Source of the DNA: Roseovarius sp. MMSF_3350
Lineage (GTDB): Bacteria > Pseudomonadota > Alphaproteobacteria > Rhodobacterales > Rhodobacteraceae
Length of the DNA stretch: 64,000 nt
Reading direction: 5' to 3'
Assembly (NCBI RefSeq): GCF_030733425.1
Contig: NZ_JASHIZ010000015.1
Location: forward strand, 1 to 64,000
Positions 7,005 through 55,147 of this stretch are shown one piece after another; the stretch's first letter is position 1; every line of letters starts with the position of its first letter. Below the pieces are notes generated by a model. The model was not told where the DNA came from. It was given only the letters and a program-made list of their open reading frames with translations, and did no database searches. The position numbers were made by a program, and so were the translations under genes.

Positions 7005-10000
7005 GCGCTGTCTTCCAGCCCGGCCAAGATGGCGTTGCGGCGGGTCTGCCAAAGACCGGCATCGAGCAAGGCGCGGAACCGGTCCTGCATGGCGGCATAA
7101 GCTTCGGGGTTGGCCTCGCGCAAAAAGGCGTCGGTGTCGGGGTCGCCCAGGGTCGCGTCGTGGTACGCGTCAAAGAGATGCGGGCCGACGACCTGTGCGA
7201 GATGGGCGAAGGCGGCCATGTGGTCGAGCGTGGCGGCGATCTCGGCGGCGCCCCGGAAGCCATGCCGCTTCATGCCCGCGATCCAGCCGGGATTTGTGGC
7301 ACGGGCATGGACGACGCGTGCGATTTCCTCGGGCAACGTGCGGGCGCGGGGGCGGTTGGGATCGGTATTGTCGAGATGGTAAAGCGCGGCGTGCCCGCCG
7401 GTGACAGATTGCGCGGCGGCAAACCCGGCCTCGTGCGTGGCATAGTCGGCGGCCAGCAGAAGGTCAGTTTCCGGCAGGTCCTGAAGGTGGACGAAGCTGT
7501 CGGCGTTTTCGACCCGGGCGCGGATGCCGGCATCGTCGCGCGTGGCCTCGTCGCCGTCGAGCGCCCAGGCGGAGGCGGAAAGCCACGCCTCGCCCGCCTG
7601 GCTGCGGGCCTCTGCGGTGTAGGTTTCGGGTGCGGCGCCCATGCCGAGGCCGAAGCTGCCGGGGGCGGGGCCGTAGACGCGTGCGCCCGAGGCGTGACCG
7701 GCATAGGGGTTCCAGTCGGGGGCTTCGTCGCGTTGTTCGAGGGCGCGCACGGCTTGAGAGAAGAGGCCAGAGAGCGTCGGGAAAACGTCGCGGAAAAGGC
7801 CCGAGACGCGCAGGGTGACGTCGATACGGGGGCGGTCGAGTTCGGCGATGGGCAGAACCTCCAGCCCCGAGACCCGTTCCGAGCCCTTGTCCCAGACCGG
7901 CTTGACGCCCAACAAATGCAGGGCCATGGCGAATTCCTCGCCGGCCGTGCGCATGGTGGCGGAGCCCCAGAGATCGACGATCAGGCCGCGGGGCCAGTCG
8001 CCTTCTTCCTGCAGGTGGCGGCGGATCAGTTCCTCGGCCAGCCTGACGCCCTGGGAGTGTGCGGCCCGCGTGGGAACAGAGCGGGGATCGGTGGTGTAGA
8101 GGTTGCGCCCGGTGGGCAGCACGTCGTCGCGGCCGCGATAGGGCGAGCCGGAGGGGCCCGCCGCAATGCGGCGTCCGTCGAGCGCGTCGAGCAGGGATTG
8201 CCGCTCGGCCAGGGCGCTGTTTTGCATCGGTTCCGCGTCGGTATCGGGTCGGCCCCAGATGTGCAGCCCGTCGCCGAACATGCTTTCCTTGATGTCGCAC
8301 ACGAAGCGGTCGATGCGGGTGATCGCCTCGGCGGTCGATGTGGCGCGGTCGAGGCCCAGATCGTCCTCGACACCGAGGGCCTGCGCCTCGGCGCGGATAT
8401 CGGCCTGCAGGCGGTCGCGGCGGCGGGGGTCGAGCCCGTCGGCGGTGGAGAACTCGTCAAGCAGCGATTCCAGCGTCGACAGGCGGTCGGGCGCGGCGCT
8501 GGCCTGCATCGGCGGGGGCACGTGGCCCAAGGTGACGGCGCCGATGCGGCGCTTGGCCTGCGCAGCCTCGCCGGGGTCGTTGACGATGAAGGGGTAGATG
8601 ACGGGCAGCGCGCCGGTCAGCGCCTCGGGCCAGCAGGCGGGCGACAGGGCGACGGCCTTGCCCGGCAGCCATTCAAGCGTGCCATGCGCGCCGATATGGA
8701 CGAGTGCGTCGGCTTCGGTCTGGAGCCAGAGGTAGAAGGCGACATAGGCGTGGCGGGGCACGCGGGACAGGTCGTGGTAGTCATCGTCGCGGGTCTTGGG
8801 CGTGCCGCGCTCGGGTTGCAGCGCGACGATGGCGTTGCCGAGGCGGAGGGCGGCGAAACGGAATTCCCCGTCCTGCGCGTCGGCGTCGTCCTCGGGACGG
8901 CCCCAGGCCAGGTAGAGATCCTCGCGCAGAGGGGTGGGGAGCCGCGCCAGCAGCGTCTTGTAGTCCGCAAGCGGCAGGCGCATGTCGCGCGCCAGCAGGC
9001 GGTCTTCCAGTGCCGCCGGTGTCGCGTCCAGCGTGTAGCCCGCGTCGCGCAGGTCCGACAGGATGGCGCGGGCCGAGGCGGGGGCGTCGAGGCCCACGGC
9101 GTGGCCCATCTGCCAATCCTTGCCGGGATAGGTGGAGAGGATAATCGCCGGATGACGCGACGCGGCGGGCGTGGCGGCGAGGTCGAGCCAGCCTTGCACG
9201 CGGGAAACCAGCGCCGCGGTCAGGTCCGGCTCGGCCCGGTGTGCAAAGCGGGAGAATTCGAGGTCCGGATCGCGCTTGCCCGGTTCCTTGAACGAGATCG
9301 TGCCGCCGGTCAGGCGGCCGTCGACCTCGGGCAGGACGACATGCATGGCAAGGTCAGCGGGCGACAGGCCGCGTTCGGAGCCGTCCCAGGCGTCGCGGGT
9401 GGAGGTGGCCAAGGCGGCCTGAAAGACCGGCACGCCTCCCGCGTCGAGCGGCGAGGTGCCGTCATCGCCCTTGCCGGAAAAGGCGGTGGCGTTGACGATG
9501 GCGTGGGGGCCGTAGGCCTGCACCTGCCGGCGCAGCCAGCCCGCCGCCTCGGGGGCCTTGAGGGACGGAGTGAAGAGGGCGCGAACATGGTGGCCCCGCG
9601 CCTGGAAGGCCTGCATCAGCGCCTCGATCGGGGCGAGGTCGGCGGCCACCACGTAGGAGCGGTAAAAGACGATCAGGATGCGCGTCTGGGTGACGGGCAG
9701 GTCGGCGAGCGGGCAGCAGGCACCGTGCTCGGGCGTCCAGGCGCCCACCATGGGCAGCACCTTGGCCCCGCGCACCGGCGCGGCGTATAGGCCCGCGGCC
9801 AGCGACAGTTGTTGCAGCGCGGCCTGTGCCGCGATACTGCCGCCGTTGTCGCAAAGCTCGGCCAGCCTTCGCAGGGTCGAGACGGGCAGGGTGGAATAGG
9901 CGTCGAGCCGGGGATCGGGCCGGCCGTCGGCGGGCAGCACGGCGAGCGCGATGCCTTTTTCCTGCGCCAGGGCCAGGACCTGCTGCAGCCCGTATTCCCA

Positions 10001-11706: not shown

Positions 11707-11797
11707 GTATCCTCCAATATCAGGGGTGCGCGCGGGAGTGGCGGGTGGCCACGCATCCGAGCCCGGCACACCCCGTCCGGTCCGTATTTTCCTTCTG

Positions 11798-11972
11798 GTT
11801 GGCAGGTCTCCCGGCTTGCGGTTTCGGGCCCTTGAGCCCACGGTTTCCGGCCTTCCCGGCATTGCGCCAGTGGCGGTGGAAACCTTCCCGGTTCACGGTC
11901 GCGGGGGCGGCTGTGCCTGGCGCGTTGCGCTGCACATTCCCTTTTCACCTGTTTACACAGGCACCAACACGG
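11798..11972 (-). ncRNA. Cobalamin riboswitch upstream of the DUF1636-cobW-cobN operon
   Basis: Read on the minus strand, the leader holds the conserved cobalamin-aptamer pieces in order: AAAAGGGAA, the B12-box-like CAGCCGCCCCCGC, CACTGG, GGGAAGGCC, and GCCGGGAGACCTGCC at the 3' end. Binding of adenosylcobalamin is expected to repress the downstream chelatase and corrin-ring genes. About 90 bases separate it from the first ATG. They can fold into a GC-rich hairpin, but no U-tract follows, so control of translation rather than termination is the better guess. Confidence 0.92.
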
Positions 11973-12016
11973 TGCGACATGCTGCGAAAACCCACCTTGT
12001 GTCAAGGAGACGTCCC

Positions 12017-19743: not shown

Positions 19744-20683
<940 letters not shown>

Positions 20684-20689
20684 AACGGG

Positions 20690-20875
20690 GATGATCGGTT
20701 CCATTTCCGCACGGGATGGAGAACAGGGAACGCGGTGCGCCGGAAAACATTCGGCAATTCCGTGGCTGTCCCCGCAACTGTAGGCGGCGAATCAGGCTGA
20801 ATACGTCACTGGAGCAATCCGGGAAGGCCAGCCAGACGATGAAGACCCGCAAGCCAGGAGACCTGCTGATCGCGA
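20690..20875 (+). ncRNA. Cobalamin riboswitch upstream of cbtB-cbtA
   Basis: The leader holds the aptamer pieces in order: ACAGGGAACGCGGTG near 20,724, GCTGTCCCCGCAACTGTA near 20,766, CACTGG near 20,807, GGGAAGGCC near 20,821, and AAGCCAGGAGACCTGC near 20,851. It is expected to lower cobalt import when cobalamin is plentiful. About 45 bases later comes the cbtB ATG. The spacer has a small hairpin (GCCTTC / GAAGGC, 20,889-20,906) with no T-tract, just before the AAAGAGG Shine-Dalgarno. Confidence 0.93.
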
Positions 20876-20920
20876 CTGAAACCACAAGGCCTTCGGGTGT
20901 GAAGGCAAAGAGGTAGAATT

Positions 20921-21097
20921 ATGAATGTAGAGACTGCAACAGCCACACAGACGACATCCGCCTCTGCGCTGGTTTCGGTTTTCGCGATTGCCGCGCTGGG
21001 CCTTGGTGTGATCTTCTTGGCAGGCCATGTGCAGGCCGGGACGCTTCACGACGCGGCGCATGACGTGCGTCACGCCACCGGCTTCCCCTGCCACTGA
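20921..21097 (+). CDS. cbtB: CbtB, small subunit of predicted cobalt transporter
   Basis: CbtB is a tiny membrane protein that accompanies CbtA in a predicted B12-regulated cobalt transporter. The 58-residue protein has one hydrophobic segment (about 14-34) and a C-terminal metal-ligand tail with His43, His47, His51, Cys57 and His58 (HDAAHDVRHATGFPCH), the family hallmark. AAAGAGG lies eight bases before the ATG. It follows the riboswitch directly and is four bases from cbtA. Transport has been predicted for the family mainly from gene context. Confidence 0.92.
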   Translation: MNVETATATQTTSASALVSVFAIAALGLGVIFLAGHVQAGTLHDAAHDVRHATGFPCH

Positions 21098-21101
21098 ACC
21101 G

Positions 21102-21803
21102 ATGTTCACGCGTCTGCTGACCAGCGCCCTGTTCGCTGGCGCTGCCGCAGGGTTGATTATCGCCCTGTTGCAGCTCTTTTTCGTGCAGCCGGTCCTGCTT
21201 CATGCCGAGCTTTATGAAGGCGGTGATCTGGTGCATTTCGGCACCGACTCGACCGTTTCGGCCACGCCGGAGCTGCCTGGCTTCGATGCCGTGCGGGATG
21301 GTTTGAGTATCATCTTCACGATGCTGATCTATTCCGGTTACGCGATGATCCTGGTGGCGCTGATGTCGCTGGCCGAGAGCCGTGGTGCGGTGATCAACGC
21401 GCGGGCGGGCCTGGTATGGGGTGTTGCCGGGTTCGTGGCGGTGCACCTGGCGCCGGGCTTTACCCTCGCGCCGGAGGTTCCGGGCGTGGCTGCGGCGGAT
21501 GTCTACGAACGCCAGATCTGGTGGTTTGCGACCGTGCTGACGGCGGCGATCGCCATGTGGCTGATCGCGTTCAGCCGGAGTTGGGCCGGGTGGGGTGCCG
21601 CCGTGGTGCTGTTGCTGGCGCCGCATGTCATCGGTGCGCCCGAGCCCGAGGTCTTTACCGGGCCCGTTCCGACCGAGATCGGCGCCCTGTTCGCGTCGCG
21701 CGCACTTGGGATCGGATTGGCGGCCTGGGTCATGCTGGGGGCCTTCGCGGGTTTCTTCTGGTCGCGCGAAAGCGAAGCGACGGGCCAGGCGCAGACCGTC
21801 TGA
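21102..21803 (+). CDS. cbtA: CbtA, predicted cobalt transporter subunit
   Basis: CbtA is the main membrane subunit of the predicted CbtAB cobalt transporter. The 233-residue protein begins MFTRLLTSALFAGAAAGLI, has about five to six hydrophobic segments, and conserves HAELYE near residue 36 and HLAPGFTLAPEVPG near 114, where His and acidic residues may hold metal. The start at 21102 follows the cbtB stop after four bases. A strong terminator lies 18 bases after the stop. Confidence 0.93.
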   Translation: MFTRLLTSALFAGAAAGLIIALLQLFFVQPVLLHAELYEGGDLVHFGTDSTVSATPELPGFDAVRDGLSIIFTMLIYSGYAMILVALMSLAESRGAVINARAGLVWGVAGFVAVHLAPGFTLAPEVPGVAAADVYERQIWWFATVLTAAIAMWLIAFSRSWAGWGAAVVLLLAPHVIGAPEPEVFTGPVPTEIGALFASRALGIGLAAWVMLGAFAGFFWSRESEATGQAQTV

Positions 21804-21876: not shown

Positions 21877-22374
21877 ATGGACCGTTCCATTCCAATGCTT
21901 CTGATCGGCCTCGTTTTCGGCGGGGGCATCGGGTTTACGGTCGCCGCGGCGAACGGTGTCGCCCTTGACGGTCATGATCATGGCGACCCGGCCCATCATG
22001 GCGGTCATGAGCAGCACGCCGGGGCGGCCATGCACGACCACGGCGACATGTTGTCGGTTCCGGCGGGCGCCGATGCGCCAAAGCTGGAGATCGAGGTGAC
22101 GCCTGATCCGTCTGCCGGCTGGAACCTGCATATCATGACCGAGAACTTTCGGTTCTCCCCGGAAAATGCCAGCCGCGACCATGTTCCGGGCGAAGGACAT
22201 GCCCATGTCTATGCCAACGGCGTCAAGCTGGCCCGGGTCTATAGTCCCTGGGTGCATCTGGACACCCTGCCCGAAGGCGAGGTGGAACTGGAGGTGGCGT
22301 TGAACAGCAACGACCATCGGCCTTTGGCCGTGGACGGTGCTCCGGTTGCGCAGACCGTCACGCTTGGCAACTGA
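21877..22374 (+). CDS. His-rich membrane-anchored or secreted protein of unknown function
   Basis: I do not recognise a characterised family. The 165-residue protein has an uncleaved-anchor-like or signal segment (about 5-26), then eight histidines between residues 33 and 55 (HDHGDPAHHGGHEQHAG and MHDHGDM). A compact domain follows with NFRFSPENAS near 90 and GEGHAHVYANGVKLARVY near 106. The His-rich stretch faces the periplasm if the anchor is N-terminal and could buffer Co or Ni for CbtAB; that is inferred from position. It begins 23 bases after the cbtA terminator. It overlaps the convergent DUF1636 gene by 17 bases. Confidence 0.8.
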   Translation: MDRSIPMLLIGLVFGGGIGFTVAAANGVALDGHDHGDPAHHGGHEQHAGAAMHDHGDMLSVPAGADAPKLEIEVTPDPSAGWNLHIMTENFRFSPENASRDHVPGEGHAHVYANGVKLARVYSPWVHLDTLPEGEVELEVALNSNDHRPLAVDGAPVAQTVTLGN

Positions 22375-22702
22375 GCGCGGGGACGCGGCCCACCAGACAG
22401 AACCGAAGCCTGCCGCAGGGCTGGGCGTCCTCGATCCAACCGTCCGGGGCGGCGAGGTAGGCGCGCAAGGTTGCGACGATATCCGCAGCGTCCTTCACCG
22501 GGTCGACCCCGTTGAAGAAATAGGTGGCCCGGCCAGGGCCCTGCATGGCCATGGAAACCGGGCTGGCGCAGCCGTTCATGCATCCGCGCTCGACGATACT
22601 CACCGCGTCTGACAGGCCTGAGGCCGCCAGTTCCTCGTGCAGGGGCGCAAGGTCCAAGGGGCCGCAGTTCTGACAGAAATGGACGGTGGCGGCGGGGGTC
22701 AT
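22358..22702 (-). CDS. Second DUF1636-like cysteine-rich protein
   Basis: This 114-residue protein has CQNC near residue 10 and GCMNGC near 41, followed by GPGRATYFFNGVD. That is the same cysteine layout as the DUF1636 protein at 11,329-11,706. An Fe-S or metal site is likely but not shown. The start at 22702 gives the family N-terminus; 28 upstream codons are open but unlikely. It lies 49 bases after the 333-residue unknown gene on the same strand, so it is probably the last gene of the btuB operon. Its tail overlaps the His-rich gene by 17 bases. Confidence 0.78.
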   Translation of the reverse strand: MTPAATVHFCQNCGPLDLAPLHEELAASGLSDAVSIVERGCMNGCASPVSMAMQGPGRATYFFNGVDPVKDAADIVATLRAYLAAPDGWIEDAQPCGRLRFCLVGRVPALSCQA

Positions 22703-22751
22703 CCGGTGTCTCGCATTGCTTACAGGCTTCGATGCATACAGATCCCAGCCT

Positions 22752-23753
22752 TCAGTGTCCCGGATTTTCCGGGTCGGCATCCGCATCGCCGCGGTCGAAA
22801 GCGACCGCCCAAGCGTTCAGCAACGCGCTGTCGCCGTGCTGGCGGCGCCATTGGCGGATCGCGTTGCGCAGGCCGGCCCGGGCCACGCGGGTGTCGGGTT
22901 CGACCCAGGTTTCGGGGTCACGTGCCTCGCGGAGCGCGGTCCACACGCGATGTTTCTGGTCGACGTAGTCCGTTGGGCCCCAATCGGACAACAGTATCTG
23001 GAAGGCCGCAAATGCCGCCTCGTCAAAGTCCTGGTCCTCGCCGAGGCGTCCCATGACGGGACTGTTCGGGTGAAAGCCGCAGCACGGCACCCAGCCGTCG
23101 GGAATGGGCGTGTTGGCGGAATGGGTCCGGTTGGCACGCAACAGCTTGGGCAGCACATGGGTGTGCGGCCCCTCGGGCGAGGTGCCGCCCGTGTCCGGTC
23201 CGCCGATCATCTGGTAGACCTCGACCCGGCCCAGGCAGGTGAGGGCCACGCGATGCGGATGCATCTTGAGGATCGCACCCATTGCCGGGTTGTCCTGTTC
23301 GAAAAGCGAGCGACCGGCGTTCGCGCGGAGAGTCTCGAGCAACGCGGGATCGGCTGTGCGGATGCAGAAATCGACCTGCGGCTGGGCGAGGCCCATGTCG
23401 AAGATGACTGCCTCTCGGTCTTCCTTGCGGATCGCATCGGTGTCGGGGCCGAGTTCGGTCAGAACATCGCGCCGGTTCATCGAAGCGGCGTCTTCGGGCA
23501 GGCAGAGCGAGACCGCCTGCGTCCAGCGGTGGGATTTGGGGCTGAGCGTTTCGTAGGCCACGGGACGGACGCCCTCCAGCGTGTCGATACGGATGCCGCC
23601 GCGCGATGTGACCTGCTGCAATGCCGATGCTTCGGACGCCGGGGGATCGCCCGCCACGTGGTGAAATTCTGCAATCGCGCCGAAAGAGCCCATGTTCCAG
23701 CCCGCGTTCGGGTCGTTCAGCCCTTCCTTCAGTACCGCTTCAAGATGTTGCAT
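22752..23753 (-). CDS. Uncharacterised 333-residue protein in the corrinoid-uptake operon
   Basis: I cannot assign a function. The protein is soluble-looking, without signal peptide or membrane segment. It has two stretches that look like metal or ligand sites: PEGPHTHVLPKLL (193-205; His197, His199) and WVPCCGFHP (221-229; Cys224, Cys225, His228), plus MHPHRVALTC near 164. GGAG nine bases before the ATG at 23753 supports the start. It overlaps cbiZ by 14 bases, so it is co-translated with the corrinoid amidohydrolase and the BtuFCD importer. A role in corrinoid or lower-ligand salvage is inferred from context only. Confidence 0.8.
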   Translation of the reverse strand: MQHLEAVLKEGLNDPNAGWNMGSFGAIAEFHHVAGDPPASEASALQQVTSRGGIRIDTLEGVRPVAYETLSPKSHRWTQAVSLCLPEDAASMNRRDVLTELGPDTDAIRKEDREAVIFDMGLAQPQVDFCIRTADPALLETLRANAGRSLFEQDNPAMGAILKMHPHRVALTCLGRVEVYQMIGGPDTGGTSPEGPHTHVLPKLLRANRTHSANTPIPDGWVPCCGFHPNSPVMGRLGEDQDFDEAAFAAFQILLSDWGPTDYVDQKHRVWTALREARDPETWVEPDTRVARAGLRNAIRQWRRQHGDSALLNAWAVAFDRGDADADPENPGH

Positions 23754-24402
23754 CGAACATTTCTCCTCTTGTGGCCAACCATTGGCGTGCGCCGTCCAGA
23801 ACGGCGGAATAGACGGCGCGGCCCGTGGCTTCGCCGATTTCGGTGTGAAGGCCGGCATAGCGTGCCTGCCCCGGCAGCGCCGCGACGGCAAGGCAATCGG
23901 TTCCGGTCCCGGTGGCGCGACCGGGCGCGAGTGACAAGTCCACGTCCATCACCGCAGCCGTGCGCGCCTGAACCGCGATGCTCATGGCTTCGATAAGGGC
24001 GGCTTCGGCAAGACGGCGGTTGAGACGGAGTGCTATATTGATAGTGCCCCAGTGTTCGCCTTCAGGAGCGGTCCTGTGCCCCACGCGCTCGGCATTGCTG
24101 AGACCGACGGTCGCGACGGCCTGCGCCTCTGTCGCGCCGACGGTGGCGACGGCGTGGGTGAAGCTGCGAACATCGCGGGAGGTCAGAAAGGCCACGGCAT
24201 CCTCGGCGTTTCGCGCGGCAAGCTCGGCTTGCAGCCAATCATGGGCCTCAAGGTCCGGTGTCAGGTCCGCATCGCGCACTTCGCGCCAGACGATGCGGCG
24301 CGCCTGAACGAGGCCGGGCCTGTGGACGGCCCAGCTCAGCACCTGCATGTCCTGTCCGAGGTCGAAGTCCAGCCAGGGGCGGTGGAGCGAGACGCGGTTC
24401 AT
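23740..24402 (-). CDS. cbiZ: Adenosylcobinamide amidohydrolase
   Basis: CbiZ hydrolyses the aminopropanol amide of adenosylcobinamide or pseudocobalamin, releasing adenosylcobyric acid for rebuilding. The 220-residue protein has the family sequence TVGLSNAERVG near 110, TRDVRSF near 78 and the RRIVWREV segment near 38. The start at 24402 shares one base with the btuD stop (TGATG). With BtuFCD upstream and the complete nucleotide-loop set in the window, it allows imported corrinoids to be remodelled to dimethylbenzimidazole cobalamin. Confidence 0.88.
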   Translation of the reverse strand: MNRVSLHRPWLDFDLGQDMQVLSWAVHRPGLVQARRIVWREVRDADLTPDLEAHDWLQAELAARNAEDAVAFLTSRDVRSFTHAVATVGATEAQAVATVGLSNAERVGHRTAPEGEHWGTINIALRLNRRLAEAALIEAMSIAVQARTAAVMDVDLSLAPGRATGTGTDCLAVAALPGQARYAGLHTEIGEATGRAVYSAVLDGARQWLATRGEMFDATS

Positions 24403-25157
24403 CACAGCACCTTGAGCGGTTGGAACACGAAGCCGCTGTCGGTGTCCTGAAACCATGCGGTGACGCCGAAAATGTCGGCAAGGCGTTGGTCGGTCAGGAC
24501 ATCGGCGGGATTGCCGTCCGCGACGAGGCCCTTGTCGCCCAGCATGATCAGGCGGGTGCAGTGGCGGGCGGCAAGCCCCAGGTCATGCAGCGACACCAGA
24601 GAGGATTTGCCGGTCCGTGCCAGCGCCGCGAAGGTCTGCATGGTGGAAATCTGGTGGGCGGGATCCAGCCCGGCGATCGGTTCGTCGGCGACAAGCAGCG
24701 GGGTTTCCTGTGCCAGCGCCCGGGCGATCAGCACACGGGCCTGTTCGCCGCCCGAAAGCTGCGTGGCATCTCGGTGGCGAAACTCGGTCAGCTCCATCCA
24801 GTCGAGTGCGTCGTCGACGGCCTTGCGGTCATGGTCGCCCGGGTTCTGGATCGAGCTGAGATAGGGGGTGCGGCCCAGCATCACCACGGTTTCCACGGTT
24901 ACCGGCCAGGCGATCTCGCGTGCCTGGGGCATCCAGGCGGCCTGTCTGGCGCGGGCGTTCTCCGACAGGGTGGCGAGGTTGCTGGAGCCGGTGAAGGGCA
25001 GCAGGCCGAGCGCGGCCCGCATCAGGGTGGTCTTGCCCGCGCCATTGGGGCCGATCAGGCCGACGAACTCGCCTGTCCCGATCTCGAAACTGACGTCGCG
25101 CAGCACATTGCGATTGCGCAAAGAGACCGTGAGGTTCTTGACGGACAGAAGGCTCAT
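24402..25157 (-). CDS. btuD: Cobalamin ABC transporter ATPase
   Basis: BtuD powers corrinoid import across the inner membrane with BtuC and BtuF. The 251-residue protein has Walker A GPNGAGKTT at 36-44, the ABC signature LSGGEQAR near 138, Walker B with LLVADEP, and the H-loop SLHDLG. The length suits the FecE/BtuD family. The start at 25157 overlaps the btuC stop (ATGA); the open frame further upstream lies antisense-like over btuC. Confidence 0.92.
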   Translation of the reverse strand: MSLLSVKNLTVSLRNRNVLRDVSFEIGTGEFVGLIGPNGAGKTTLMRAALGLLPFTGSSNLATLSENARARQAAWMPQAREIAWPVTVETVVMLGRTPYLSSIQNPGDHDRKAVDDALDWMELTEFRHRDATQLSGGEQARVLIARALAQETPLLVADEPIAGLDPAHQISTMQTFAALARTGKSSLVSLHDLGLAARHCTRLIMLGDKGLVADGNPADVLTDQRLADIFGVTAWFQDTDSGFVFQPLKVL

Positions 25158-26137
25158 ATCCGTTCCTTTCGCAGCTTCAGGATGAGATGCAGGAACAAGG
25201 GCGCGCCGACAAGGGCGGTCAGCACGCCAAGCTTGAGGTCCCGGGCGGGCAGGATGACCCGCACCGCGATGTCGGCGGCCGACACCATGGCCGCGCCGCC
25301 AAGTGCCGAGGCCCAGAGCAGGCGCGAGGGATGCGCCCCGACCAGGGGCCGAAGGAGGTGCGGGACAACGAGGCCGACAAAACCGATCGCGCCTGCGACC
25401 GCCGTACCCGCGCCGACCACGCAGGCAGTGCCTAGCACCAGCAGCAGGCGCAGGCGGACAAGGCGGATGCCCATGGCCGCCGCGGCGTCCTCGCCCAGCG
25501 TCATGGCGTCGAGGCCACGCCCCAGGCCGGCCAGAAGGGCAAAGCCCACGGCCATGAAGGGCAGGGCGAGCCACACATGCGTCATCGAGCGGTCGGTGAG
25601 CGAGCCCATCATCCAGAAGACGATTTCATTCGCGGCGAAGGGATTGGGCGAGAGGTTCAGCACCAGCGAGGTCAGCGCTCCGGCCAGGGCAGAGACCGCG
25701 ATGCCGGCCAGGATCAGTGTCAGGGACGTGCCGCGCGGGCCGGCCAGCGACATGACCAGCACCACCCCCAGCAAGGCGCCCGTGAGTGCCGCCAGGGGAA
25801 GGCCGAGCGCGAACGCCCCCGCCATCCCGGTATGGATTGCCAGCACAGCCCCCAGCGCGGCAGAGCCGGAGACACCGATCAGGCCGGGCTCTGCCAGCGG
25901 ATTGCGCAGGTAGCCCTGCATTGCCGCCCCGGCCAGCCCGAGGCTGCCCCCGATAAGCACGGCGAGGATGGCGCGCGGCAGGCGCACCTCGCGCATCACC
26001 AGCGTCAGGGGGCCGCCATCGCCCAGGAAAAGCGCCGACAGGCTTTGCCGGATGCCGATGCCGGCGGGGCCTATCAAGAGCGACGCGGCGAATAGCGCGA
26101 CGACCACCAGCAGGAGCGAGAGGAACAGTGCCTTCAT
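25154..26137 (-). CDS. btuC: Cobalamin ABC transporter permease
   Basis: BtuC is the FecCD-family permease, working as a dimer. The 327-residue protein is hydrophobic throughout, about ten helices, with the family signatures RLPRAILAVLIGGSLGLAGA near 50, NPLAEPGLIGVSGSAALGA near 77 and FVGLVVPHLLRPLVG near 245. The start at 26137 overlaps the btuF stop as ATGA. It sits between the binding protein and the ATPase, the usual order. Confidence 0.93.
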   Translation of the reverse strand: MKALFLSLLLVVVALFAASLLIGPAGIGIRQSLSALFLGDGGPLTLVMREVRLPRAILAVLIGGSLGLAGAAMQGYLRNPLAEPGLIGVSGSAALGAVLAIHTGMAGAFALGLPLAALTGALLGVVLVMSLAGPRGTSLTLILAGIAVSALAGALTSLVLNLSPNPFAANEIVFWMMGSLTDRSMTHVWLALPFMAVGFALLAGLGRGLDAMTLGEDAAAAMGIRLVRLRLLLVLGTACVVGAGTAVAGAIGFVGLVVPHLLRPLVGAHPSRLLWASALGGAAMVSAADIAVRVILPARDLKLGVLTALVGAPLFLHLILKLRKERI

Positions 26138-26988
26138 TGCTGGCTCCCGAAGAGGGCTTCGCGATCGGCGGCAAGCTCCTCTATGGCGCGGAGCACGTAT
26201 GGCGTGCCGCAGACCCAGTCGCGATCGGTGATGCTGGCCCGTTCGCCCGTCCGGCGCAGCGTTTCGATGACGGGGTGGTTCATGATCGCCTCGGCGCGGG
26301 ACTCGCCGGGATAGGGCTGCGAGGTGATCACCAGATCGGGGTTCGTGACCGCCAGCACTTCGAGCGGGATCTTCATGCCCGATCCGTACCCGGCCTCTGC
26401 CGCGGCGTTGGCAAAACCCGCCGTGGTCAGGATCTGGCCCGCCAGCGTCTGTTCCCCCGAGGTGTAGCCGTTGGCGTAGAAAAGCACCGCACGGGGCCGC
26501 TGCGCCACGTCGGCCCGCAGGTTGGCCAGACGCGTGTCGAAGTCCGACACCATGGCTTGGGCCGTATCCTCGCGGTGCAGCACCTCGCCCATCTGCAGGA
26601 TGCGGTCGCGCACATCGTCAAGCGACGAGGCGGGATCGAACACGACGACCGGGATATCCAGCCGGCGCAGCATTTCCACGGTGGCGCGGGCCGAATAGGC
26701 ACCCGCGATCACCAGGTCCGGCTGCATCAGGTAGACCTCTTCGGCGAGACCGTGATTTATGACGTACTCTTGTGCCTCCTCTGCCATGGCCGAGGCGCGG
26801 GGGTCCGCCGCGAGATAGGTCACCGAATGCAGCTGACCAGGCTCTGCCAGCATCATGGCCAACTGATCGGTGCAGAGGTTCATGGAGACGACGCGGCGCG
26901 GCGCCTCGGCCACGACCGGACTGGCCCCGCACAGCAAGGCTGCGAGGGTCAGTCCGGCAAGGGCAGTGGGAAGACGCAGCGACATCAT
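26134..26988 (-). CDS. btuF: Cobalamin-binding periplasmic protein
   Basis: BtuF delivers corrinoid to BtuCD. The 284-residue protein has a signal peptide (about 1-27, ending SPVVAEA), then RRVVSMNLCTDQLAM and the family segments PDLVIAGAYSA near 92 and GSGMKIPLEVLA near 203, of a class III binding protein. The start could be either ATG of an ATGATG pair (26988 or 26985). It follows btuB after one base, which links outer-membrane and inner-membrane transport in one transcript. Confidence 0.9.
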   Translation of the reverse strand: MMSLRLPTALAGLTLAALLCGASPVVAEAPRRVVSMNLCTDQLAMMLAEPGQLHSVTYLAADPRASAMAEEAQEYVINHGLAEEVYLMQPDLVIAGAYSARATVEMLRRLDIPVVVFDPASSLDDVRDRILQMGEVLHREDTAQAMVSDFDTRLANLRADVAQRPRAVLFYANGYTSGEQTLAGQILTTAGFANAAAEAGYGSGMKIPLEVLAVTNPDLVITSQPYPGESRAEAIMNHPVIETLRRTGERASITDRDWVCGTPYVLRAIEELAADREALFGSQQ

Positions 26989-26989
26989 C

Positions 26990-28936
26990 TCAGAAGGTCG
27001 CCGTCAGGCCGAAGAACGCCGTGCGGCCAGGGGTCTCGAAGCCTAGGACCTCCTGGTAATTTTCGTCGGTCAGGTTCTCGATCCGGCCATAGATCTCGAC
27101 GCTGTCGGTCAGCTGGTGCCGCAGGCCGACATTGACAAGCGTGTAGTCCGGCAGGGTCACCGCTACGGATGGGTTGGGAAATGGCGGAAAGAACGAGTCG
27201 ACATTGTTCGCCACGTGCTGCACGTCCATGGTGAAGCGCGTGCGGTCATCCGGGAAATCGTAGCCAAGCTGCAAGAGCACCTCGTGTTCCGGGCGACGGA
27301 CCTCGGTGCTGCCGTTGGGGTTCTCGGCGTCCAGCCACGTATAGTTCCCCCCGAGGTCGAGCCGCGCGTTCACCTGCCAGGTCGCACCGATTTCCACGCC
27401 TCGGCGTTCACTTTTGCCGGCCTGGTTGAAAGGTGTCAGGCTACCGGTTCCGGGATCGACGGTGGACGAGATCTCGTTGGTCAGCTCGTCATCGAAATAG
27501 GTGACGTCGATAAGGCCACGGCCGCCCAGGAACTGTTGCTCGACGCCGATATCCCAGCCTTCGCTCTGCTCGGGTTCCAGGTTGGGGTTGCCGATGAAGT
27601 TGTTGGAAAAGCCGAACTGTTCGAGCATGGTGGGGTTCTGGACGCCGGTGCCGTAGGAAGCATGCAGTCGCGTGGTCTGGTTGGACAGCTTGTATGACAC
27701 ACCGACGGCGTAGGTCGTGAAATCCTCGAATTCGTCGTTGAAATCATGTCGGACGCTGGCCTGCACATCAAGACTGTCGGTCAGGTTGCCCTGGTATTCC
27801 GCCACGAGAGCGGTCTGCTCGCGCGTCTGCTTGATCAGCTGGCTGGGTGCGAAGACGAAGGCGGGGTTGTTGTTGACGAAGGTTTCCCGCTCCCACTCGG
27901 CGCCGAGGGTCAGGATGTGGCGGGCGGTATCGACCGTGCCGCCATCCAGCGCGACGCTGCCCTTGTAGCTGATCTTGTGCCGTGTCTCTGTGGTGTCGCC
28001 CGACTGCGCGCCGGTGCCGTTGAAGCGATCGGTCTGGATGTCCGCGAAGGACAGGTCGAGCCGGTTACGAAAACGTCCGCCGAACGTGTCGAGCACGGCG
28101 TAGATCGAACCGAAGGTCTCGGCCGTATCGGAACCGGAAAAGTCATCGACGAGGATCTGCCCGGCAGGTGTGAGCGCGGTGTAGATCTGGCCGTCGAAGT
28201 CCGAGTCGCTTTTCACGTGCCGCAGCGTGCCGCCGAAGGTCAGCGTCTCGGTCGCGTAATACTGAACGTTGAGGTTGTAGGTTTCATTGAGATCGCCGTC
28301 GTCCTCGCCGTTCAGGCCGGACACGTCATAGCCGCCGGTATCCCGGCGCGTCGCGGAAAAGCTGAGCGCCAGTTTGTCCGTGCGCTGCCGCAAGGCCAGG
28401 CTGACTTGCGTGGTCTCGTCGGTGCCGATCTCAAACCCGGCCTGCCCGCTGAAGCCCGGCTCGGTCGCGCGCTTGGTGGTGATCGAGATCACGCCGCCGA
28501 TGGCGTTCGAGCCGTAAAGCGAGGATTGTGGCCCGCGCAGGACCTCGATGCGCTCGATGTCGGCGCTGAGTAGGCCACTGAAATCGTATTCGCCCTGGCT
28601 GGGCGAGGCCACCTTGACGCCATCAATGATGACCAGCGTGTGGTTGCCCTCGTGGCCGCGCATACGGACCTGGGTCAGGCCGCCGGCGGGGCCGGTCCGC
28701 GAGACGGAAACGCCCGGCAGTGAGCGGATGAGATCGACGGCGTATCTTGAGCCGCGATCCTCGATATCCTGTTCGGTCAGCACGGTCCCGGCGCGGCCAT
28801 AGGCGCTGCCTTCAATCGGGGTCAGGCCGCCGGAGACAAAGATCGTCCCGAGGTCATAGGGCGTGTCCTGCGCAATGGCGGGTTGGGTGAAAAGGGCAGT
28901 GGATGCCGCAAGTGCGGCTTTGAATGAGCGTGACAT
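26990..28936 (-). CDS. btuB: TonB-dependent outer-membrane cobalamin receptor
   Basis: BtuB carries corrinoids through the outer membrane using TonB energy. The 648-residue protein has a signal peptide (about 1-22), a plug domain with RSLPGVSVSRTG and LRGPQSSLYGSNAIGGVISITT near 115-136, and a beta-barrel ending in the aromatic FFGLTATF. The ATG at 28936 is preceded by GGAGGGG, itself able to pair with an upstream CCCCTCC in the leader. The gene follows a cobalamin riboswitch, which supports cobalamin rather than iron as substrate. Confidence 0.93.
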   Translation of the reverse strand: MSRSFKAALAASTALFTQPAIAQDTPYDLGTIFVSGGLTPIEGSAYGRAGTVLTEQDIEDRGSRYAVDLIRSLPGVSVSRTGPAGGLTQVRMRGHEGNHTLVIIDGVKVASPSQGEYDFSGLLSADIERIEVLRGPQSSLYGSNAIGGVISITTKRATEPGFSGQAGFEIGTDETTQVSLALRQRTDKLALSFSATRRDTGGYDVSGLNGEDDGDLNETYNLNVQYYATETLTFGGTLRHVKSDSDFDGQIYTALTPAGQILVDDFSGSDTAETFGSIYAVLDTFGGRFRNRLDLSFADIQTDRFNGTGAQSGDTTETRHKISYKGSVALDGGTVDTARHILTLGAEWERETFVNNNPAFVFAPSQLIKQTREQTALVAEYQGNLTDSLDVQASVRHDFNDEFEDFTTYAVGVSYKLSNQTTRLHASYGTGVQNPTMLEQFGFSNNFIGNPNLEPEQSEGWDIGVEQQFLGGRGLIDVTYFDDELTNEISSTVDPGTGSLTPFNQAGKSERRGVEIGATWQVNARLDLGGNYTWLDAENPNGSTEVRRPEHEVLLQLGYDFPDDRTRFTMDVQHVANNVDSFFPPFPNPSVAVTLPDYTLVNVGLRHQLTDSVEIYGRIENLTDENYQEVLGFETPGRTAFFGLTATF

Positions 28937-28994: not shown

Positions 28995-29067
28995 TGACTC
29001 CGCAGACGGTGATGACGTCACCGCTACGGAAAGTCCGTTGTCGAAACGCGCCCCGCGTTCGGACAGG

Positions 29068-29262
29068 GTGATCACCTCGGCAGGTCTCCTGACTTGCGGG
29101 TCAACACTTGGCCGGGTCTTCCCATCATGCACAGCATGACAGTGACATGGTCCGGCTTCGCTCTCCGCCTACAGTTGCGGGGGCAGTTGCGGAATGGACG
29201 CCTTGGGCGTCGCACCGCATTCCCTATTATCCCGCCGGCAAACCGCCGGGAACCGAAGTGAA
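29068..29262 (-). ncRNA. Cobalamin riboswitch upstream of btuB
   Basis: Read on the minus strand, the aptamer pieces appear in order: AATAGGGAATGCGGTG, the B12 box TGCCCCCGCAACTGTAGGCGG, GTCACTG, GGGAAGACC, and GCAAGTCAGGAGACCTGCC. It should repress btuB and the linked btuFCD-cbiZ genes when adenosylcobalamin is high. Its 5' end lies about 58 bases after the stop of the bat operon on the same strand, with no clear promoter or terminator between. Confidence 0.93.
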
Positions 29263-29320
29263 TCGATGCGTAAAGGATGGAAAGGTTCGAGAAAAGATAA
29301 AACTTGAAGACTGGAAACTT

Positions 29321-53386: not shown

Positions 53387-55147
53387 ATGCCCACCAGTAT
53401 CTCTCGCTCGGATTATGCCGCCATGTTCGGTCCCACGACCGGCGACAAGGTGCGGCTGGCCGACACTGATCTGATCATCGAGGTCGAACGCGACTTGACG
53501 GCCCTGAACGCGGGTGCAGCCACGACGGGCGGTACCGGAGACAACGCCACCCTCTACGGCGAGGAGGTCAAATTCGGTGGTGGCAAGGTTATCCGGGACG
53601 GCATGGGGCAGTCCCAGGCCACCCGGTCCGAAGGCGCGGTGGATACCGTGATCACGAATGCCCTGATCCTGGACTACACCGGCATCTACAAGGCGGATGT
53701 CGGTCTGAAGGACGGCACCATCCTTAAGATCGGCAAGGCCGGCAACCCCGACACCCAGCCGGGCGTCGACATCATCATCGGCCCCGGAACCGAGGTCATT
53801 GCAGGCGAAGGCCGCATCCTGACGGCAGGCGGCTTCGACAGTCATATCCATTTCATCTGTCCGCAACAGATCGAGGACGCGTTGCATTCGGGACTGACGA
53901 CGATGCTGGGCGGTGGTACGGGGCCGGCGCACGGTACGCTCGCCACCACCTGCACGCCGGGGCCGTGGCATCTCGGGCGGATGTTGCAGGCCGCCGATGC
54001 CTTTCCGATGAACCTGGCCTTCGCGGGAAAAGGAAACGCGTCGCTGCCGGCGGCGCTGGAAGAGCAGATTATCGCCGGGGCCTGCGCGCTAAAACTGCAC
54101 GAGGACTGGGGCACGACCCCGGCGGCCATAGACTGCTGCCTGTCCGTCGCGGACGCGATGGATGTGCAGGTAATGATCCACACGGACACGCTCAACGAGT
54201 CGGGCTTCGTGGAAAACACCGTGGCGGCGATGAAGGGCAGGACGATCCATGCCTTCCACACCGAGGGCGCGGGTGGCGGGCACGCACCCGATATCATCAA
54301 GATCTGCGGGCAGGGAAACGTGTTGCCCTCCTCGACCAACCCGACGCGGCCCTTCACGGTGAACACGCTGGAAGAGCATCTGGACATGCTGATGGTCTGC
54401 CACCACCTCGACAAGTCGATCCCCGAGGATATCGCCTTTGCCGAAAGCCGCATCCGGCGCGAGACCATCGCCGCCGAGGATATCCTGCACGACATGGGAG
54501 CGTTCAGCATCATCGCTTCGGACAGCCAGGCCATGGGTCGTGTCGGAGAGGTGATCATCCGCACGTGGCAGACGGCGGACAAAATGAGGAAACAACGCGG
54601 TCGCCTGTCCGAGGAGACCGGCGAGAACGACAATCTGCGGGTCCGTCGTTATGTCGCCAAGTACACGATCAATCCGGCCATCGCGCACGGCCTGTCGGAC
54701 CATATCGGCTCCGTCGAGGAAGGCAAGAGGGCCGATCTGGTGCTGTGGCATCCGGCGTTCTTCGGAGTGAAGCCCGAGATGGTTCTGATCGGCGGGTCGA
54801 TCGCCTGTGCGCAGATGGGCGACCCCAACGCCTCGATCCCGACGCCACAACCGGTTTACACACGCCCCATGTTCGGCGCTTTCGGTCGCGCCGTCGAAGC
54901 ATCGGCGGTGACCTTCGTTTCGGCAGCTGCCGCGGATGCGGGCATCGGAGACAGCCTTGGGCTCGCCAAGCAGACGCTGCCCGTTCAGAAAACCCGCGAC
55001 ATCGGCAAGGCCGACCTGAAGCTCAACGATGCTTGCCCTGAGATCGACGTGAACCCCGAAACCTACGAAGTGCGCGCTAACGGCGAATTGCTGACCTGTG
55101 AACCGGCCAGCGAGTTGCCCATGGCGCAGCGCTATTTCCTGTATTGA
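53387..55147 (+). CDS. ureC: Urease alpha subunit
   Basis: UreC is the catalytic subunit that hydrolyses urea to ammonia and carbamate. The 586-residue protein carries all nickel ligands at a constant shift of 19 from the Klebsiella enzyme: His153, His155, carbamylated Lys236, His265, His291 and Asp379, plus the catalytic flap Cys338-His339. All are intact, so the enzyme should be active if nickel is loaded. The ATG at 53387 is preceded by AAGGT. The extra length relative to Klebsiella is N-terminal to the first ligand. Confidence 0.97.

Follow-up and report, generated by a model that had tools for sequence, protein, structure and literature searches.

The cobalamin (B12) uptake operon of Roseovarius sp. 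MMSF_3350 raises the question of what is done by the 333-residue protein that it encodes directly behind cbiZ, in the order riboswitch-btuB-btuF-btuC-btuD-cbiZ-DUF6925-DUF1636, all on the minus strand. The operon lies on contig NZ_JASHIZ010000015.1 (assembly GCF_030733425.1), of which the first 64,000 nucleotides were analysed and are here referred to as the window. According to the initial annotation, the gene overlapped cbiZ by 14 bases, was followed by a DUF1636 gene under a btuB-side riboswitch, had no recognised function and might represent an overlooked step in corrinoid salvage or lower-ligand remodelling. The overlap holds, the ends at 23740 and 23753 being in agreement, and is of identical length in loci L005 and L006; the DUF1636 gene and the riboswitch were likewise recovered, by Pfam PF07845 and Rfam RF00174 (128 bits), respectively. 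As for the function, none is indeed described, but the family does have a name. The protein matched the Pfam family DUF6925 (PF21973) with an E-value of 6.1e-133 and 443 bits, passing the gathering score of 27 bits, with residues 4-302 aligned to positions 2-300 of the 300 in the profile, and DUF6925 was the sole domain in the Pfam scan (E ≤ 1). The NCBIfam scan returned no family, and no paper with "DUF6925" or "PF21973" turned up in a literature search; DUF6925 is a named Pfam family without described function, and unstudied. The open reading frame (ORF) is a real gene, more than a product of chance, because third codon positions vary far more than second ones (159-184 versus 40-97 differences in five pairwise comparisons), indicating purifying selection, and because 29 named relatives, 53-79% identical, keep the frame open for most of its extent or throughout.

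The surroundings of the family were compared in two sets, namely 36 homologous loci sampled from 34 genomes, with up to 9 kb fetched on each side, and 29 named loci recovered as close relatives of the window gene. Neighbours were scored by blastp with the B12 proteins of the window, by Rfam and, for some flanking genes, by Pfam. A cobalamin riboswitch (RF00174) was found in 21 of the 36 sampled loci, against 0.44 expected from the riboswitch count and the rounded size of each genome; several of the sampled genomes share a genus, and the loci are not independent. btuB, btuC or btuF lay nearby in 20 of these loci, and 24 had a B12 context once cbtA/cbtB, cobU/cobQ neighbours or the riboswitch were included, so that the homologues sit mostly inside B12 loci and the membership in a corrinoid locus claimed at first stands. 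In the named set, a BtuC relative was present near DUF6925 in 29 loci out of 29 and a riboswitch in all six searched for one. The 36 genomes found to carry DUF6925, spanning 26 genera, all have a cobalamin riboswitch somewhere. The B12 context is clustered on the tree, because 8 changes suffice for the label, as compared with 11.0 on average for shuffled labels (6 of 500 shuffles as low), yet it was lost or gained several times. The link of DUF6925 with corrinoid uptake is very probably general and not a local accident.

This linkage persists though gene order varies between lineages. DUF6925 follows btuBFCD in some loci, lies ahead of btuD in L031 (btuBFC-DUF6925-btuD) and precedes btuBFCD in L074, L083 and L088; it comes after btuB, with a divergent btuCDF, in L100, follows cbtBA in L092, adjoins cbtA in L084 and precedes cobU in L102. 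An ExbB-like gene occurs among the next downstream genes in 15 of the 65 compared loci (identity confirmed by Pfam in L013, the one tested), and among the 25 named loci of Rhodobacterales type (L005-L029), 12 have it in the place of DUF1636, so that these gene sets include TonB-energising parts as well. Such company would suit a protein that serves the importer as a regulatory or structural partner, acting for instance by gating through BtuD and involved in no corrinoid chemistry. Indeed, btuC and btuD are the closest steady neighbours, exbB/exbD are present in some lineages, and the Arg-rich helical C-terminus of the long forms, with R289 and R296 in all 55 alignment rows having those columns, could dock on a partner. 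However, we consider this role unlikely, given that some members lack btu genes and stand beside cbtA/cbtB, cobU or hemB, and that the strongest conservation falls on a His motif of a kind typical of ligand sites.

The nearest relatives place DUF6925 behind cbiZ, which is present in 24 of the 29 named loci, and the two genes are adjacent in all four host-family genomes having both. This neighbourhood is what speaks for the role first proposed, that of a cobamide-remodelling enzyme preparing or consuming the substrate or product of CbiZ: in the window DUF6925 overlaps and directly follows cbiZ, and all four long forms among 149 host-family genomes come directly after it. In Rhodobacter sphaeroides, as described in a passage of PMC7733943, pseudocobalamin remodelling begins with CbiZ. 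The wider family, however, does not need cbiZ. Of the 36 genomes with DUF6925, 7 gave a CbiZ match (7 of 32 among those at least 90% complete), and 18 of the 20 btu-linked sampled loci belong to genomes where no CbiZ was found. Conversely, 30 of the 149 host-family genomes have CbiZ, 26 of them without DUF6925 and four with it, the CbiZ and DUF6925 counts coming from two draws of 149 taken as the same genomes. In Roseovarius pacificus (L007), moreover, DUF6925 comes straight after btuD without an intervening cbiZ, and in genome G033, where the gene has the same position, cbiZ is on another contig. Because cbiZ occurs in few DUF6925 genomes, and DUF6925 is missing from most cbiZ-bearing ones of the host family, DUF6925 goes with corrinoid uptake rather than with lower-ligand remodelling. 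Most CbiZ-bearing relatives would remodel pseudocobalamin, if at all, without DUF6925, and a remodelling enzyme seems to us a decidedly unlikely answer. The btu link is general, and the cbiZ link narrow.

The family is equally independent of de novo synthesis. Of the 36 DUF6925 genomes, 26 gave a CobK/CbiJ hit and 10 did not; since six of these 10 keep a btu-linked DUF6925, four of the six being at least 96% complete, the gene goes with uptake and not with synthesis, being retained together with the importer by likely B12 auxotrophs. The genome of the window (G000) itself has two CobK/CbiJ genes (C6:3058-3768 and C19:141-851).

An alignment of 66 rows (window, 29 named, 36 sampled) was used to assess the groups PEGPHTHV and WVPCCGFHP, in which a metal- or corrinoid-binding site had been suspected. 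Residues conserved in at least 90% of rows include G22, G25, A26, E29, F30, D104, D119, R132, R168, R176 and E178, as well as much of the GPHTHxLP strand (H197 in 61 and H199 in 63 of the 66 rows), whereas WVPCCGFHP is poorly kept (C224 in 43, H228 in 42), so that the suspicion of conserved His/Cys groups survives for the first and fails for the Cys pair of the second. All 50 btu-linked members (that of the window, 29 named and 20 sampled) keep both His of the His-Thr-His (HTH) motif, versus 10 of the 16 others, a contrast inflated by relatedness. Handling of cobalt or another metal, with the HTH strand as metal site, would be in line with L092 and L084, where DUF6925 adjoins genes of the proposed cobalt transporter CbtA/CbtB within riboswitch-bearing stretches, and with the cbtBA pair nearby in the window. 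It is nonetheless very improbable, in that HTH is degraded in the two members found next to cbt genes in loci other than the window (L092 reads GPNTH, and L084 lacks the motif) and kept in btu-linked ones. A changed HTH motif was also observed in L103, L101 and L078 (family f70), copies away from btu genes that are perhaps of changed function; genome G548 holds two copies, L095 being btu-linked with the motif intact and L103 having it changed.

The family comprises long forms of about 285-380 residues and ten short forms of about 220-250, as cut by the gene-calling script, the latter without the C-terminal helical part; DUF6925 of L083 is short too, through an in-frame stop, and that of L086 is cut by the contig end. 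In a tree from which 12 of the 66 rows had been dropped as near-copies of Rhodobacterales sequences, leaving 54, six of the ten short forms group together with strong support (100/100). Two arrangements of short forms were also recorded. In L087 (6452-8594), a gene for a family 5 solute-binding protein is preceded by a cobalamin riboswitch (8380-8594, minus strand) and diverges from DUF6925; in L089 (7699-10400), hemB, DUF6925 and a SOUL heme-binding gene are consecutive on one strand, which hints that the theme of the family may be tetrapyrroles in general.

As a tentative answer, it may well be that DUF6925 accepts or processes corrinoids in the cytosol for BtuFCD, in the way that HemS handles heme. 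Placed by this reading in the cytosol directly behind BtuB-BtuFCD, the protein would receive imported corrinoid from BtuCD and hold it, probably via the HTH strand. It might then prepare the corrinoid, for instance by removal of the upper ligand before re-adenosylation, or pass it to CbiZ or an adenosyltransferase, and in the window organism DUF1636, described in part of PMC4520260 as a relative of thioredoxin-like [2Fe-2S] ferredoxins, could supply electrons. HemS/HmuS, of which it would be the corrinoid counterpart, are cytosolic proteins of heme-uptake operons that chaperone or process heme. On the heme side, passages of PMC6018153 present HemS as associated with a heme-specific transport system, PhuS as shuttling heme to its oxygenase, and HmuS as degrading heme in vitro with ascorbate or ferredoxin/NADPH.

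Structure prediction offers a possible parallel. The AlphaFold2 model of the whole protein, built from 30 rows, had a predicted local distance difference test (pLDDT) of 88.7 and a predicted template modelling score (pTM) of 0.87, and that of residues 1-230 (core) a pLDDT of 90.7 and a pTM of 0.88. In the whole model, some of the lowest confidence within the core falls on the blocks of residues 181-220 that surround HTH (means of 58, 81, 75 and 78), as might be expected of mobile ligand loops. Solved structures searched with the sequence and with a 30-row profile gave no relative, two single-sequence matches at E 1 and 2 being regarded as chance. With VIA-align, the top match was 3na2, of unknown function (Z 6.6, 126 residues, 3.6 Å for the whole model; 5.9, 91 residues, 3.0 Å for the core). 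It was followed by heme-handling proteins, namely, for the whole model, by 3fm2 (5.4), ChuS (4.7 and 4.5) and HemS (4.4 and 4.4), and the core model matched HemS (5.5, 147 residues, 4.5 Å), ChuS (5.4, 147 residues, 4.4 Å) and HutX 5exv (4.2, 88 residues, 3.1 Å). Other than these and DNA clamps, nothing exceeded Z 3.1 in the VIA lists, an absence that excludes nothing. A HemS profile matched 3fm2 marginally (E 0.1) and did not list 3na2 up to E 1, so that 3na2 does not qualify as a heme protein. The recurrence of ChuS and HemS in both models, which fits the biology, is suggestive of a HemS-like fold, at a level below proof of descent.

Several results weigh against a HemS-like corrinoid acceptor. 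No B12 neighbour was found in 12 of the 36 sampled loci by blastp, Rfam and Pfam of one to three flanking genes each, with genes called by a simple GC-frame script that possibly missed some neighbours; three of the 12 have a broken HTH motif. DUF1636 was seen near DUF6925 in the window and, at 25% identity only, in L084, by a blastp search at E 1e-4 that is weak for so short a protein; ferredoxin coupling was not made central, DUF1636 being hardly found near other DUF6925 genes. The distribution is patchy: one draw of 385 genomes from the class yielded DUF6925 in 26, and another of 398 from the phylum in 10 (all ten of the same class, the two hit sets sharing the window's own genome and G318). 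The gene turned up in 7 of 149 host-family genomes and in 4 of 60 from near relatives, while the 14 control genomes had none. Being this patchy, DUF6925 is at most an uptake accessory. As regards the fold, Foldseek gave no match at E ≤ 0.001 for the whole or core model and its rows were mostly DNA clamps for both; sliding clamps were themselves rejected as fold relatives, with TM-scores of at most 0.15 and root-mean-square deviations above 17 Å in the clamp rows listed. Clamps in VIA-align reached Z 3.7 (whole) and 4.2 (core), which is the HutX level and about one unit below HemS and ChuS, all VIA Z values were below 8, a range in which, as the tool warns, matches may reflect common arrangements, and 3fm2 was listed only for the whole model and HutX only for the core. 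At the sequence level, the probability assigned by hhalign stayed below 1% both for 16 HemS proteins and for a 30-row HemS lobe alignment, the latter negative being slightly weakened by two wrongly cut rows that are not HemS (L114 and L127), and no HemS domain (PF05171) was found in the Pfam scan at E ≤ 1. Because these sequence tests failed, DUF6925 is not filed in the HemS family, yet by analogy it may still work like HemS.

A more specific scheme, speculative and in our judgement rather improbable, would have a HemS-like fold redeployed from heme to corrinoids in alphaproteobacteria importing B12 through BtuFCD, with DUF6925 as their missing B12-processing protein of the cytosol, taking base-off corrinoid from BtuCD on the HTH strand and stripping the upper ligand reductively, and with the short forms serving other tetrapyrrole steps. 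In role, DUF6925 would then be a bacterial counterpart of human MMACHC. No title on a HemS-type corrinoid chaperone was present among the matches listed in our literature search. To our knowledge, little is known of how bacteria treat corrinoids on the way from the inner-membrane importer to the adenosyltransferase. A conserved, riboswitch-linked family would provide a named gene for this step, and DUF6925, with its 26 alphaproteobacterial genomes in a single draw, would gain a function. If the fold match holds, heme and B12 uptake would share the same kind of cytosolic partner.

The features of the locus are collected in Table 1. Three of the four cobalamin riboswitches of this genome fall within the window, the third lying at 11784-11983 (minus strand), near cobQ/cobD. 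A 165-residue His-rich protein encoded at 21877-22374 (plus strand), after cbtB-cbtA, converges on the DUF1636 end and had no confident match in Pfam or NCBIfam. At 53590-53879 (minus strand), a full-length match to the 5' ureB small RNA family (125.6 bits) was found, which is perhaps merely the conserved ureB coding region in antisense.

Table 1. Features of the DUF6925 operon and its convergent neighbour (window positions).
Feature	Position	Strand	Basis
DUF6925 gene, 333 residues	22752..23753	-	ORF list; Pfam PF21973; homologues
DUF6925 core domain, residues 1-230, predicted alpha/beta, in long and short members	23064..23753	-	AlphaFold2, VIA matches
DUF6925 C-terminal helical part (predicted), residues 231-333, missing in short forms	22755..23063	-	model and alignment
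GPHTHVLP motif, residues 195-202	23148..23171	-	alignment
Overlap of cbiZ 3' end and DUF6925 start, 14 bases	23740..23753	-	ORF coordinates
cbiZ, adenosylcobinamide amidohydrolase	23740..24402	-	Pfam PF01955, 1.2e-47
btuD, ATP-binding cassette (ABC) ATPase	24402..25157	-	ORF list and Pfam ABC
btuC, FecCD permease	25154..26137	-	ORF list and Pfam FecCD
btuF, periplasmic binding protein	26134..26988	-	ORF list and Peripla_BP_2
btuB, TonB-dependent receptor (plug and TonB-receptor barrel)	26990..28936	-	ORF list and Pfam
Cobalamin riboswitch heading the operon	29062..29272	-	RF00174, 128 bits
DUF1636 gene; start codon 22702 or 22786, uncertain	22358..22702	-	Pfam PF07845, 9.3e-17
Second cobalamin riboswitch, heading cbtB-cbtA, convergent neighbour of the DUF6925 operon	20679..20884	+	Rfam
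cbtB	20921..21097	+	Pfam/NCBIfam scans
cbtA	21102..21803	+	Pfam/NCBIfam scans

Among known systems, the remodelling enzymes CbiZ and CbiR resemble DUF6925 in that some of their genes adjoin transport genes, as stated in part of PMC7733943, and differ from it in that Pfam gives DUF6925 alone and its distribution does not track CbiZ. The decyanating B12 transporter BtuM (PMC6072759) compares with DUF6925 in that the processing of imported B12 is the job proposed here for the latter; BtuM, however, is a membrane protein using a Cys ligand, whereas DUF6925 has a His motif and a model resembling a soluble alpha/beta protein. The single-lobe heme carriers HutX/ChuX (PF06228) are approached by the core model (HutX, at clamp level), although DUF6925 is longer and has a helical C-terminal part. 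From HemS/ChuS/PhuS (PF05171) it is set apart by the lack of sequence or profile similarity, by the different cargo expected and by the host having its own HemS elsewhere (G000 contig 40). Nevertheless, these proteins give the weak fold match that is the best among proteins of known role, and they share with DUF6925 a gene position beside a TonB receptor and a FecCD-type importer of a tetrapyrrole, such receptor and ABC importer genes accompanying DUF6925 in the window and, at least partly, in 20 of the 36 sampled loci.

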